This document shows, one piece after another, positions 15,807-30,187 of a DNA stretch of 64,000 nt (position 1 is the first letter of the stretch; each line of letters begins with the position of its first letter). The stretch spans positions 1 to 64,000 of the forward strand of contig JBDIWM010000001.1 in the NCBI GenBank assembly GCA_039638595.1. The letters are read 5' to 3'. A program made the translations under genes and the position numbers. Below the pieces are notes generated by a model, which was given only the letters and a program-made list of their open reading frames with translations, did not search any database and had not been told where the DNA came from. This stretch comes from Atribacterota bacterium. GTDB taxonomy: Bacteria; Atribacterota; Atribacteria; Atribacterales; Caldatribacteriaceae.

Positions 15807-15827
15807 GGGGAGGTGAGGGATCTGTCC

Positions 15828-17603
15828 TTGGCCGATTGGATAAAAAGGGTAAAGAAGAAATGGATTCTAACTGTGTTCTTGTTTACTGGAATGCTCTATG
15901 CATGGCAAAGCTTTGTTTTTGCGTCCTCTCCGATTCGGGGTGTATGGATCGATACGAAAAGCATTCCTTCAGCTCGCGAAGGTATTGCCAGTATGTTAGA
16001 GCGCCTCAAGGAAGCTCACTTCACTACAATTTTCCTGGAATCGTTTTACAATGGGAAGACTATTTACCCCTCCCAGTTTCTCGCCTCTCTGGGTTTTTCT
16101 CCGCAGATGGACGCCTTTGCTCAGTTTGGGATTGACCCTTTGCAAATCTTCCTTGAAGAGGCCCATAAAAGAGGGATCGAAGTTCATGCCTGGATGCATA
16201 TCTTTTACATCAGTCGCAACGAACCAGGAGAACTCCTGAGCCACTTTCCCCACTGGGCTGTGGTCGGCAAAGATGGAAAACCGGGCTACCAGAGCGGGAC
16301 GAACTTCCTCTACTGGTTATGTCCCTTAGAGAAAGAGGTACAGGATTTTTATCAGAAACTCTTAGAAGAGCTGGCTGAACGATATCCCCTTGATGGCATC
16401 CAGCTCGACTATTACCGTTTTCCAGAACCAACCCTTATCGACACCTGTTATGCTGAAAAACATCGCCGTGAATTCTTAAACCAATACGGCATTGATCCGA
16501 TCAGTATTGACCCCCTCGAGGATGGAAAGCTGTACCAGGCCTGGATCCAATTTCGGGCGGATCGTTTGACCGAATTTACCCGTACCCTCACCACAAACCT
16601 TAAAAAGAAACGTCCCCAGATACGCCTTTCCTGTGCCGTGAAACCCCTGGGATTTCCCATAGGGCGGTATCCTGGATCGTTACAGGATTGGCCTCGCTGG
16701 GCCAAGGAAAACCTTTTTGATTTCCTCGCACCCATGACTTACAGTTCCCGTCCGGCAGAATTCGAGGGAATGCTTCTCTGGACCCGGACCTTCGCTCCCC
16801 GTGCGCCAATTTTGGCGGGAGTCTGGACCGTAAACCTCCCCGCCTTCACCATCCTCGAAGTAATCGAACGAGCAGAACGGTATCCCTTATTCGGGCTTTC
16901 ACTCTTTGCCTGTCCTTACCTGACCAATGAAATCCTGAAAGCCTTATCCCAACGTGAACCACAAAAACACAAATCCCGGGCCATCCCTCCGGTTTCCTTT
17001 TACCGGGAAAATGTTCGTATCATCAAAGCCTTTTTCACGAAGGAACCCATTATCGTGGACGGAAAGCTGGACGAATTCACCTGGGAACAGGTGTCCTTCC
17101 AAAACCAATTTACTCTCCTTACTGGTGGTCCAAGCAAAAAGAAAACCGAAGTTGCCGTACAGTATGACGAAACCAAACTGTACTTTGCCATCCGGATGGA
17201 AAACTTTCCAGAGCGGTCACTCCGCTTTCGAAAAAGAGACGAACCGGTATTTTACGAAGACTCTGTCGAAATATATCTCGACCCCTTTGGGAACGAAGGA
17301 ATTTTTTACCAGTTGGCTGTAAACGCCCACGGAGGATTTTACGATTCCTTTTCTCTTACTGGACCATCATGGAACGGAAACTGGGAAATAGGTGTGGAAC
17401 GGGACGGAAGCACACTCGTTCTGGAAATCGCCATTCCTTTTGCCGAACTCAAGACCCAAAAACCACAACCAGGCACGACTTGGGGTATTAACTTTTATCG
17501 GAATGAACCACAGGATGGACTTTTCAGCGCTTTCTCACCTGTCCCAGGAGTCTACCCTGCAGCAACACTGTTGGGAAAACTACAGTTTGAAAATAACCCA
17601 TAA
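15828..17603 (+). CDS. Family-10-like glycoside hydrolase with C-terminal CBM9-like domain
   Basis: An exported protein of about 591 residues. After a signal sequence (WILTVFLFTGMLYAW) comes a GHL10 (DUF187, YngK-type) TIM barrel: IRGVWIDTKS, EVHAWMHIF, DGIQLDYYRFP and FDFLAPMTYSS mark strands carrying likely acid residues. From about residue 400 a carbohydrate-binding domain of the CBM9-like type begins (IIVDGKLDEFTWE, FYEDSVEIYLDP). Such proteins act on cell-wall or polysaccharide sugars outside the cell. TTG 15828 is preferred, as GGAGGTGA lies 11 bases before; GTG 15813 is possible. The stop codon lies within the candidate small RNA gene on the other strand. Confidence 0.85.
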   Translation: MADWIKRVKKKWILTVFLFTGMLYAWQSFVFASSPIRGVWIDTKSIPSAREGIASMLERLKEAHFTTIFLESFYNGKTIYPSQFLASLGFSPQMDAFAQFGIDPLQIFLEEAHKRGIEVHAWMHIFYISRNEPGELLSHFPHWAVVGKDGKPGYQSGTNFLYWLCPLEKEVQDFYQKLLEELAERYPLDGIQLDYYRFPEPTLIDTCYAEKHRREFLNQYGIDPISIDPLEDGKLYQAWIQFRADRLTEFTRTLTTNLKKKRPQIRLSCAVKPLGFPIGRYPGSLQDWPRWAKENLFDFLAPMTYSSRPAEFEGMLLWTRTFAPRAPILAGVWTVNLPAFTILEVIERAERYPLFGLSLFACPYLTNEILKALSQREPQKHKSRAIPPVSFYRENVRIIKAFFTKEPIIVDGKLDEFTWEQVSFQNQFTLLTGGPSKKKTEVAVQYDETKLYFAIRMENFPERSLRFRKRDEPVFYEDSVEIYLDPFGNEGIFYQLAVNAHGGFYDSFSLTGPSWNGNWEIGVERDGSTLVLEIAIPFAELKTQKPQPGTTWGINFYRNEPQDGLFSAFSPVPGVYPAATLLGKLQFENNP

Positions 17604-17697
17604 AACACCTATGGGGAGTTACCTCTAGCGGGAAGGTAACTCCCCATAGGTGCAAGGAGGGGATTTTCGCTATTAAGATGTTTCATTCAACTTCCAG
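17601..17697 (-). ncRNA. Candidate small RNA with C-rich ribosome-site-complementary motif
   Basis: A perfect-hexamer promoter (17704-17731) fires leftward into a stretch with no gene on that strand. Transcription from about 17697 gives roughly 95 bases: a 35-base A/U-rich 5' part, then CCCCUCCUUG (17653-17662). An 18-pair hairpin follows (arms 17635-17652 and 17606-17623, 11-base loop), with UUUU after it, a good intrinsic terminator. The CCUCCUU segment is unpaired in this model and is exactly complementary to Shine-Dalgarno sequences, as in C-rich motif small RNAs of Firmicutes. No known RNA family is recognised. Its 3' end overlaps the stop of the hydrolase gene on the opposite strand. 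Confidence 0.6.
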
Positions 17698-17703
17698 AAC
17701 TTT

Positions 17704-17731
17704 ATTATATAAAGGTTTTTTATTTTGTCAA
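17704..17731 (-). promoter_or_regulatory. Consensus sigma-70 promoter of the candidate small RNA
   Basis: TTGACA (17726-17731) and TATAAT (17704-17709), both perfect, with a 16-base A-rich spacer. It points away from the neighbouring leftward gene and toward the hairpin at 17606-17652. This is the best consensus promoter seen in the window. Confidence 0.75.
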
Positions 17732-17767
17732 GACTCCAATCAGAAATTTTATAAAAAATTTTGGAAA

Positions 17768-19675
17768 TCATTCCTCCACCTCTTCTCGAGCATCCTGGAG
17801 GAGTTTTTCAAGCTGTTCCACGGTAAGGTCGAGTTGAGTTTCATTATAGCAACTCGTTTCGCCACCGTTACAAACAAAATTCCGATAGTGAACCCGAAAC
17901 ACACCGGGAGCAACTTCCCGAGCGTTTTCGACTACTTCTACCCAGTAAACCTTATCATCGTAGCCAAACACTTCTCGAGCACGAACGGTTTCCTTCTCTG
18001 CCAGCCAGGTAAGGTACCGGGGATAGAAATTACGGAAGGCAGCAACAATTTTTGAATTATCTCCACCCGGGATCACGGATTCCCCCGGAGGCGTTACAGT
18101 CGTGTCATTATCATGAGTGACATCCGATGAAGGCGGTAAATCTTCATCCAGAGCTTCTGGCGATGAGTCACCGACGGTACTCTCCCCCAGGAATTCAAGC
18201 ATAGAACGAATACCGGCTTCAATCTCACCCAGATTGATCGCTCCCTCAAACGAGGATACTGGTACCACATCGCCATTCTGGAGGCGAACCAGGATTCGAT
18301 AGGAAACAAAGAAGCGACCATTTTCTACCGGCGTCCCAGCCTGAAGAATTTCAAAAGAGTAGGTATTTTGTGCCCCGTGGGACCGATCCCAATTCTCAAG
18401 TTCTTTTGCTTTTCTTGCCAGATATCGGGAAAGAACCGCTCGATACTGAGAAAGAATCTCGTCTTCCTGGGGTTTTTGATATCCTGTGGAAAATTCGGAA
18501 TCTTGAGACACTTCAGAAACTTCCACTTCCTGGGGCACGTCAGAAGTACCACTCTGGAGTTCTTTTTCTAAATACTGGATGGCTTCCTGAAAATCCTTGG
18601 GAGTTCCCTTGGTCTTATCCTCACTGAGCAAGACTTTCTCTCCAGCCTCGTTATATCCAAAGATTTTCCAACTCACCTCGTAGAGACCAGAGGCGATCTT
18701 CGCTGCTTCACCCACTTCGACAAAGAACGATTTCACTCCACTGGATCTGGCAATTTCAGCCTCGATATACTCCTTAAGGAGCTTGCGAAAAGAAGAAAAA
18801 AGTTGAGCTTCTTCTTCCGATACCGTTTCTGGCTTTAGTGAAGGAACAGGGGTAGGAGCAGTCGTAAGTTCTACTGGAGAAGGAGAGGGTAAATCCTCCG
18901 GTTGTGGGGAAGGAGAGGGCGCTACCAGACGGCGCTCAGCTTCCCGTTCTAGACGAACAAGATCTGAAGCGACACTCTGCCAGAGCGCTGCACCAACAGC
19001 AGTCTCTTCCCCGGCAAGGATCTCTCTCTGGAAACGGAGCTCCAGACTGCTCATCCAGAACTGATCGATCTGGGAACGGAGACGTCTTTCAAGTTTCTCT
19101 CCTAAAAGGTCTGCATTATACCCCTTTCGCTTGAGCAACTCCTGATACATCTTGTCCTGCACCAGGTAGTACCCATTCCATCCCATAACGGCCGATTCAA
19201 AAGCCGTATTTTTTGACTCCTCACTCGTATCTCCCCGTTTCCAGTCTATAAGGCGCATGGAACGATAACTCTGGTAAATGGATTCCTCAAACCGTGGAAT
19301 AACAGCGTAATCCCGGACCACCTCGAGGCTCGTTTGATAGATTTTCACGGCGGTGAGAAAAGTCTGCAGGGGACCAGGAAGAAGCACCGATTTCAGGTTA
19401 TCGACAAAACGGTCGAAAAGTTCCAACATCACATCATTATCCTGAGCCGTAGCAAAAAGATGCACCACCTTCACCGCAAAGGTTACTCGCTCTACGTTAT
19501 CAAAAAGAGATGGAGCCTCATCATAGATGAGTTCCAGAGTATCCTTGGCAAGGCCTGTCAATCGGGATGCTTCCTCAATCACGTCACCCCGCGAAACCTC
19601 ATCCAGGGCAAATCCATGCGACGCTACAAAAAAACAGAAAATAGACAGCAGGACTATCGCGAACCCCTTTTTCAC
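17768..19675 (-). CDS. Exported protein with three copies of an unknown domain
   Basis: A 635-residue exported protein (signal peptide VLLSIFCFFVASHGFA). Residues 25-235 are mostly helical. A Pro/Ser/Thr linker (about 250-285) then leads to three related domains of roughly 90 residues (about 290-375, 400-495 and 545-630). Each starts with a helix like FRKLLKEYIEAEIA / YRAVLSRYLARKA / FRNFYPRYLTWLAEKE, followed by a beta section (GLYEVSWKIFGYN / GRFFVSYRILVRL / GVFRVHYRNFVCN), and closes with a helix. Linkers between copies are acidic and Pro/Ser/Thr-rich. The third copy has two cysteines. GTG 19675 has AAGGAGG and its own promoter. Function unknown; a surface or periplasmic binding role is a guess. 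Confidence 0.75.
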   Translation of the reverse strand: MKKGFAIVLLSIFCFFVASHGFALDEVSRGDVIEEASRLTGLAKDTLELIYDEAPSLFDNVERVTFAVKVVHLFATAQDNDVMLELFDRFVDNLKSVLLPGPLQTFLTAVKIYQTSLEVVRDYAVIPRFEESIYQSYRSMRLIDWKRGDTSEESKNTAFESAVMGWNGYYLVQDKMYQELLKRKGYNADLLGEKLERRLRSQIDQFWMSSLELRFQREILAGEETAVGAALWQSVASDLVRLEREAERRLVAPSPSPQPEDLPSPSPVELTTAPTPVPSLKPETVSEEEAQLFSSFRKLLKEYIEAEIARSSGVKSFFVEVGEAAKIASGLYEVSWKIFGYNEAGEKVLLSEDKTKGTPKDFQEAIQYLEKELQSGTSDVPQEVEVSEVSQDSEFSTGYQKPQEDEILSQYRAVLSRYLARKAKELENWDRSHGAQNTYSFEILQAGTPVENGRFFVSYRILVRLQNGDVVPVSSFEGAINLGEIEAGIRSMLEFLGESTVGDSSPEALDEDLPPSSDVTHDNDTTVTPPGESVIPGGDNSKIVAAFRNFYPRYLTWLAEKETVRAREVFGYDDKVYWVEVVENAREVAPGVFRVHYRNFVCNGGETSCYNETQLDLTVEQLEKLLQDAREEVEE

Positions 19676-28598: not shown

Positions 28599-28846
28599 AA
28601 AAAACCCCTCGCCCCAGGGGCGAGGGGTAAACCCGCGGTGCCACCCTTCTTGAGTTCACTACTCCACTCTTTTCCGCTATCGGGGAATCCGGTTGAGCCT
28701 ACTTGGGCTTTCGACCCACTCCTCCAAGACCCATTCATTCCCACCCACAGCACCGGGCTCCCACCTTTCCCCAGCTCTCTTGCGCCTGGTATAGGAACTA
28801 CTTATTCTCTTCCTCGGTTTCTCTGTATTTGACTTTAAAAATAACT
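28599..28846 (-). promoter_or_regulatory. T-box riboswitch, specifier UGG (tryptophan)
   Basis: Leftward leader with all parts of a T-box. The T-box sequence AGGGTGGCACCGCG is at 28634-28647. Next is a terminator of 11 G/C-rich pairs (28605-28627) followed by six U. The Stem I distal elements AGAGAGCUGGGG and GGUGGGAGCC are present, as is AGUA of the specifier loop. Opposite the AGUA strand, just above a helix CCGAGG/UCUUGG, stands UGG (28731-28733) in GAAUGGG, the expected place for the specifier codon. Uncharged tRNA-Trp should bind and prevent termination, turning on tryptophan uptake and TrpB2. This fits the downstream genes exactly. Confidence 0.92.
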
Positions 28847-30020: not shown

Positions 30021-30035
30021 TTAATAACCACTCTC

Positions 30036-30168
30036 ACTTCTTCTCCCTTCCGGACTGTACCGTCGGCTCCGGACTCTCACCGGATCAACAATCCTAAAAG
30101 ATTGCTCGCGGGCTTGGAGTTTACGCTCCTTACCGCCGGTCGGGAATTTCACCCTGCCCTGAAGAAGT
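30036..30168 (-). promoter_or_regulatory. FMN riboswitch (RFN element)
   Basis: Leftward RNA with nearly every conserved block. The closing helix is ACUUCUUC/GAAGAAGU. Then come AGGGCAGGGUGAAAUUCCCGACCGG (positions 30136-30160), GGCGGUAAGGAG, AGCCCGCGA, GAUCCGGUGAGAGUCCGGAGCCGACGG (one continuous conserved block, about 30062-30088) and AGUCCGGAAGGGAGA. It senses FMN to control ribU. Confidence 0.97.
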
Positions 30169-30187
30169 ATTATTTCAACTCACAGGA

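Follow-up and report, generated by a model that had tools for sequence, protein, structure and literature searches.

The minus-strand stretch that ends at position 17602 of the window (the whole 64,000-nucleotide stretch of Atribacterota DNA analysed here) is very probably a true gene for a small regulatory RNA about 95 bases long. Comparison with related genomes makes us almost certain that it represents a real family of sRNA genes. We found what is expected of a trans-encoded sRNA: its own promoter, an intrinsic terminator, a conserved single-stranded seed and a free-standing gene. The earlier note had proposed a candidate small RNA at this place, and the conserved promoter, the invariant C-rich segment, the covarying terminator and the existence of paralogues bear this out.

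The window copy (type A) is preceded by a sigma-70-type promoter, TTGACA-16-TATAAT (17704..17731, minus strand), with TTGACA at 17731-17726, a 16-nt spacer and TATAAT at 17709-17704. It matches the consensus at 12/12 positions, as the earlier note had stated of a perfect leftward promoter, and is the sole 12/12 site within the 20 kb scanned. Reading of the sequence 5' of the −35 box revealed an A/T-rich stretch (17732..17767, minus strand), which may belong to the promoter in the manner of an UP element; many homologues have similar A/T tracts ahead of their −35 box. We infer a start near 17696, 7-9 nt past TATAAT at a partly conserved GGA, and an end at the UUUU run, giving a predicted sRNA at 17602..17696 (minus strand) of ~95 nt, the length given in the earlier note. 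About 40 nt downstream of TATAAT lies the seed, UCCCCUCCUUGCA (17651..17663, minus strand), which includes CCCCTCCTTG at 17662-17653 and contains CCUCCUU, an anti-Shine-Dalgarno (SD) core. In predicted folds the first 10-11 nt of the seed are largely unpaired, so that the exposed C-rich motif described earlier is indeed present as unpaired UCCCCUCCUUG with its CCUCCUU core ahead of the hairpin.

The intrinsic terminator hairpin and its UUUU tail occupy 17602..17653 (minus strand). The UUUU run stood as described, but not the 18 pairs: the stem (17652-17606, followed by TTTT) has 20 pairs by scan and 21 when a closing G-U is counted (20-21 bp). Its folding energy was −41.1 kcal/mol (z=−6.8), and none of 200 shuffles was equally good. 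A covariance model matched the window copy at 17599-17672 with 77.8 bits (E=6e-15). The convergent gene on the plus strand (15813..17603), outside the sRNA, is glycosyl-hydrolase-like (GHL10) with a CBM9 domain; the hairpin, which is situated 3' of this gene, does not suit it as a terminator, in agreement with the earlier reading, since rightward CAAGGAGG follows and there is no T-run. On the minus strand, which had been thought to carry no gene, a 635-aa ORF without a Pfam match (17768..19675), likewise outside the sRNA, stops 36 nt short of the −35 box. This ORF has its own promoter-like site at 19728-19700, and the sRNA hairpin probably ends its transcription as well. Its product begins signal-peptide-like. 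Elsewhere in the window, Rfam models matched a c-di-GMP-I riboswitch (2156-2239), a T-box leader (28613-28823) and an FMN riboswitch (30034-30170), all on the minus strand.

By DNA search of the window's own genome and 40 relatives (41 genomes), the element proved present across the whole family and also in further families of the order, and several genomes carry it away from the hydrolase gene. The loci have a common layout, in which a strong promoter is followed by a variable 5' part, then by UCCCCUCCUUGCA, the hairpin and a U-run; because this whole arrangement is kept across the order, its occurrence in the window is not due to chance. Promoters matching 11-12/12 positions with an exact TATAAT were present at 32/37 distinct loci, compared with 0.6% of shuffled upstream regions. 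They precede type A and most type B copies; such a promoter is lacking at the type C loci of genus g8 and, when a stricter pattern is applied, at second copies in genera g6 and g9. The 13 bases of the seed were the same in 32/32 distinct copies from several families in a search allowing one substitution. All seed columns were also invariant in an alignment of 33 sequences (A1), an invariance that is partly built in because these sequences were picked by their seed motif. A model search that did not require the seed added only two copies with a changed seed. Degenerate seeds occur only in two type B copies of genus g4 (CCUCCUUACA or CCUUCUUACA), where the type B seed is decaying. The hairpin covaries, with changes on both sides at 14/21 pairs and 94.8% of cells paired, and its covariation score was 0.562 vs 0.225 for shuffles and ≤0.189 when the partner strand was slid. 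In the relatives compared, covariance search included, both of the features named in the earlier note, promoter and C-rich motif, were thus conserved.

In most genomes type A and type B occur side by side as one copy each, and one genus has a third, giving two to three copies per genome. Type A, with the flank GAAAAUCCCC, adjoins the hydrolase gene in family f1 and lies elsewhere in f4 and f3; within the window's family the hydrolase is its neighbour in most genomes, the exceptions being G014 and G016. Type B, with the flank UCUUUCCCC, is located in three families between a pair of M16 peptidase genes (the domain was established in the window's own genome only) and tRNA-Pro(UGG), upstream of the tRNA. 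In f1 and f4, type B has a second anti-SD motif, GCACCUCCU; the own-genome copy (G000, contig C29:14346-14412, plus strand; locus L052/L066) has an extra GCACCUCCUU motif. Type C is the third copy in genus g8 of f3 and lies behind a gene that reads as sugar-kinase-like from its sequence. Its loci L073, L074, L075, L076, L102 and L201 have no recognisable sigma-70 consensus. Upstream of some type C copies there is a common block resembling GAAACTTTTT-N-GGTTTTGCATAATAT, which may be another type of promoter. Since the copies occupy different neighbourhoods, the element does not belong in cis to any single gene. We also considered a repeat element and rejected it: the window's own genome has just one full copy, the only other match there is the palindrome itself, and type B is a diverged paralogue.

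The covariance model, built from the 33-sequence alignment, gave matches with E<1e-9 in 23/25 genomes of the order; the remaining two, G006 and G021, had none, and both are incomplete assemblies. In 25 other genomes of the phylum there was no convincing match (0/25; best E=0.019). A strict sequence pattern, which would miss diverged relatives, had 29 matches among 84,980 species genomes, all in Atribacteria/Caldatribacterium and two metagenome-assembled genomes (MAGs; G002, G003) of the window's family. As far as we searched, the family thus appears confined to one order of Atribacterota. Spread by viruses was rejected, as viral contigs contained no match to the sRNA. None of the window copy, type B, type A from f3 and type C reached the gathering score of any of the 4227 families of Rfam 15, in keeping with the earlier note, which had recognised no known family, and at E up to 10 only sub-threshold matches appeared. 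The best of these, RT-6, falls on the opposite strand, over the A/T-rich promoter and not over the RNA. In the literature library searched, no relevant work on small or noncoding RNAs of Atribacteria or Caldatribacterium came up; a transcriptome of the Atribacteria isolate RT761 has been published (PMC7736352).

How might this RNA act? C-rich motifs of LhrC, RsaE and FsrA bind SD or other G-rich sites near starts (PMC4132741), in RoxS and FsrA such a motif covers the SD (PMC8216469), and sX13 represses mRNAs with G-rich motifs near their starts independently of Hfq (PMC3771888). We read the new RNA as an SD-blocking sRNA, like LhrC, RoxS/FsrA and sX13, because of its architecture and its single-stranded anti-SD core. 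It would be transcribed from the strong sigma-70 promoter and terminated at the covarying hairpin; the single-stranded UCCCCUCCUUGCA immediately ahead of the hairpin would pair with the G-rich SDs (AGGAGGGG) of several mRNAs, and this pairing would block ribosome loading. A gene for Hfq (PF17209) was found in 0/25 genomes of the order, while known Hfq carriers used as positive controls were detected; the sRNA would therefore act without Hfq. Pairing with SDs is a reasonably probable mechanism, and we hold with moderate confidence the full statement that type A is a stand-alone sRNA whose seed blocks G-rich SDs of several mRNAs independently of Hfq. The trans-acting repressor of the earlier note is the preferred mechanism and a plausible one. 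Its other proposal, competition with the 16S tail, is a mere restatement without separate support, because the RNA, being of the same sense as the 16S tail, would pair with those very mRNA sites.

Targets were sought in 464 kb of the window's own genome with simple start calls, together with pattern searches. Across 25 genomes, SDs of the form GGAGGGGA ahead of ATG occurred at 194 sites vs 82 for the reversed pattern, and many GGAGGGGA sites have ORFs after them; such SDs are a real class in the genomes of the order. AGGAGGGG served as SD of only one gene in a sample of 467 genes of the own genome, and the exact complement of the full seed, GCAAGGAGGGG, was present there at the two sRNA loci only. 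The N-termini encoded behind GGAGGGGA, in a set of ORFs partly hand-picked from the listed sites, were signal-peptide-like in 19/38 cases; within the same order the figure for GGAGGTGA was 11/37 (p=0.10), and for genomes of family f7 that lack the sRNA it was 4/18 (p=0.08). The difference was gone when two matched strong SDs were compared (12/19 vs 11/20, p=0.75), and in the own genome general SD strength explains the association. In the own-genome sample, genes for secreted or membrane-anchored proteins had stronger SDs than other genes (p=2e-5). Because secreted-protein genes in these genomes have strong SDs, we claim no specific regulon, and a regulon of envelope or secreted proteins was rejected.

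The chief alternative is a conserved sRNA whose invariant segment interacts not with mRNA ribosome-binding sites but with, for example, an RNA-binding protein, the ribosome or another RNA for which it acts as a sponge. We regard this as possible, though rather unlikely. The identity of the 13-nt seed in copies from several families fits it, as conservation seems tighter than SD pairing alone would need. So do the results on targets: pairing of the seed with the start regions of the 467 genes was no better than that of the reversed seed, and no orthologous or conserved target set emerged among the ORFs behind candidate SD sites in genomes of the order. The lack of Hfq, the usual helper of sRNAs, points the same way. 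On the other hand, a perfect anti-SD core in single-stranded RNA is the typical layout of an SD-blocking sRNA, and with a target prediction as weak as one from a partial genome and simple start calls, missing enrichment is weak evidence. Also rather unlikely is a global control of translation dosage, in which two or three strongly transcribed anti-SD sRNAs with an identical core, near-universal in this deep bacterial order and including a tRNA-Pro-linked copy that in several families has a second anti-SD motif, would vie for strong SDs with the 16S tail or would bind another partner.

Explanations that do without an sRNA fared far worse. The hairpin could be only a terminator, for the upstream minus-strand gene or for both convergent genes, combined with a chance promoter and C-rich stretch. 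Its position between convergent genes would suit this role, and we saw no other strong terminator between the 635-aa gene and the hairpin. However, promoter, seed and hairpin are kept together at unrelated loci (that in f1, those in f4 and f3, and that of type B at tRNA-Pro), and an invariant 13-nt seed would be superfluous for a terminator; we consider this explanation very improbable. Type B precedes a tRNA gene on its own strand, which would be compatible with a 5' leader or riboswitch-like attenuator of a downstream gene. Type A, however, has no same-strand gene downstream, the hydrolase gene being antisense to it; downstream genes vary between copies, and we saw neither a conserved antiterminator alternative nor an Rfam cis-element match at the locus, so that a leader, too, is highly unlikely. 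Copies at other loci led us to reject a hydrolase leader or a merely shared terminator. Least credible of all is an mRNA for a small protein: an ATG near 17686 of the window opens a short frame through the seed, but in the same-genus relative L003 this frame hits a stop after six codons and is not conserved, and the hairpin and 5' part differ in length by single bases between copies.

Returning to the SD-blocking sRNA, as far as our tools tell the family is previously undescribed and would belong with the C-rich, SD-directed sRNAs. It resembles the LhrC family of Listeria (with RsaE/RoxS and FsrA of Firmicutes) in size (LhrC, 111-114 nt; PMC4132741), in having several copies per genome and in its single-stranded UCCC-type motif, LhrC likewise having a C-rich motif that covers the SD. 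Unlike LhrC, the Atribacterota sRNA has no Rfam match, occurs in another phylum and lacks a conserved upstream stem-loop; its seed is the longer, invariant UCCCCUCCUUGCA, joined directly to the terminator stem, and its promoters are of housekeeping type, not those of a known stress regulator, in genomes with no Hfq gene. The rhizobial SmelA075/SmelA099 also form a conserved sRNA family with a repeated anti-SD motif (PMC3927594), but there the motif (CCUCCUCCC) is displayed in three or four hairpin loops, whereas in Atribacterota it is linear and lies 5' of one hairpin. With sX13 of Xanthomonas the shared feature is Hfq-independent action of C-rich motifs on G-rich motifs near starts (PMC3771888); sX13 differs in presenting them as apical loops on three stems and in belonging to another phylum, and we saw no sequence relation.

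Taken together, our data describe a clear family that spans the order and includes paralogues; its promoters are exceptionally strong and its anti-SD seed is invariant, in bacteria that have no Hfq. The family could readily be proposed as a new Rfam entry, and it allows Hfq-free control of SDs to be tested in a phylum that is otherwise little studied and includes a cultured member.
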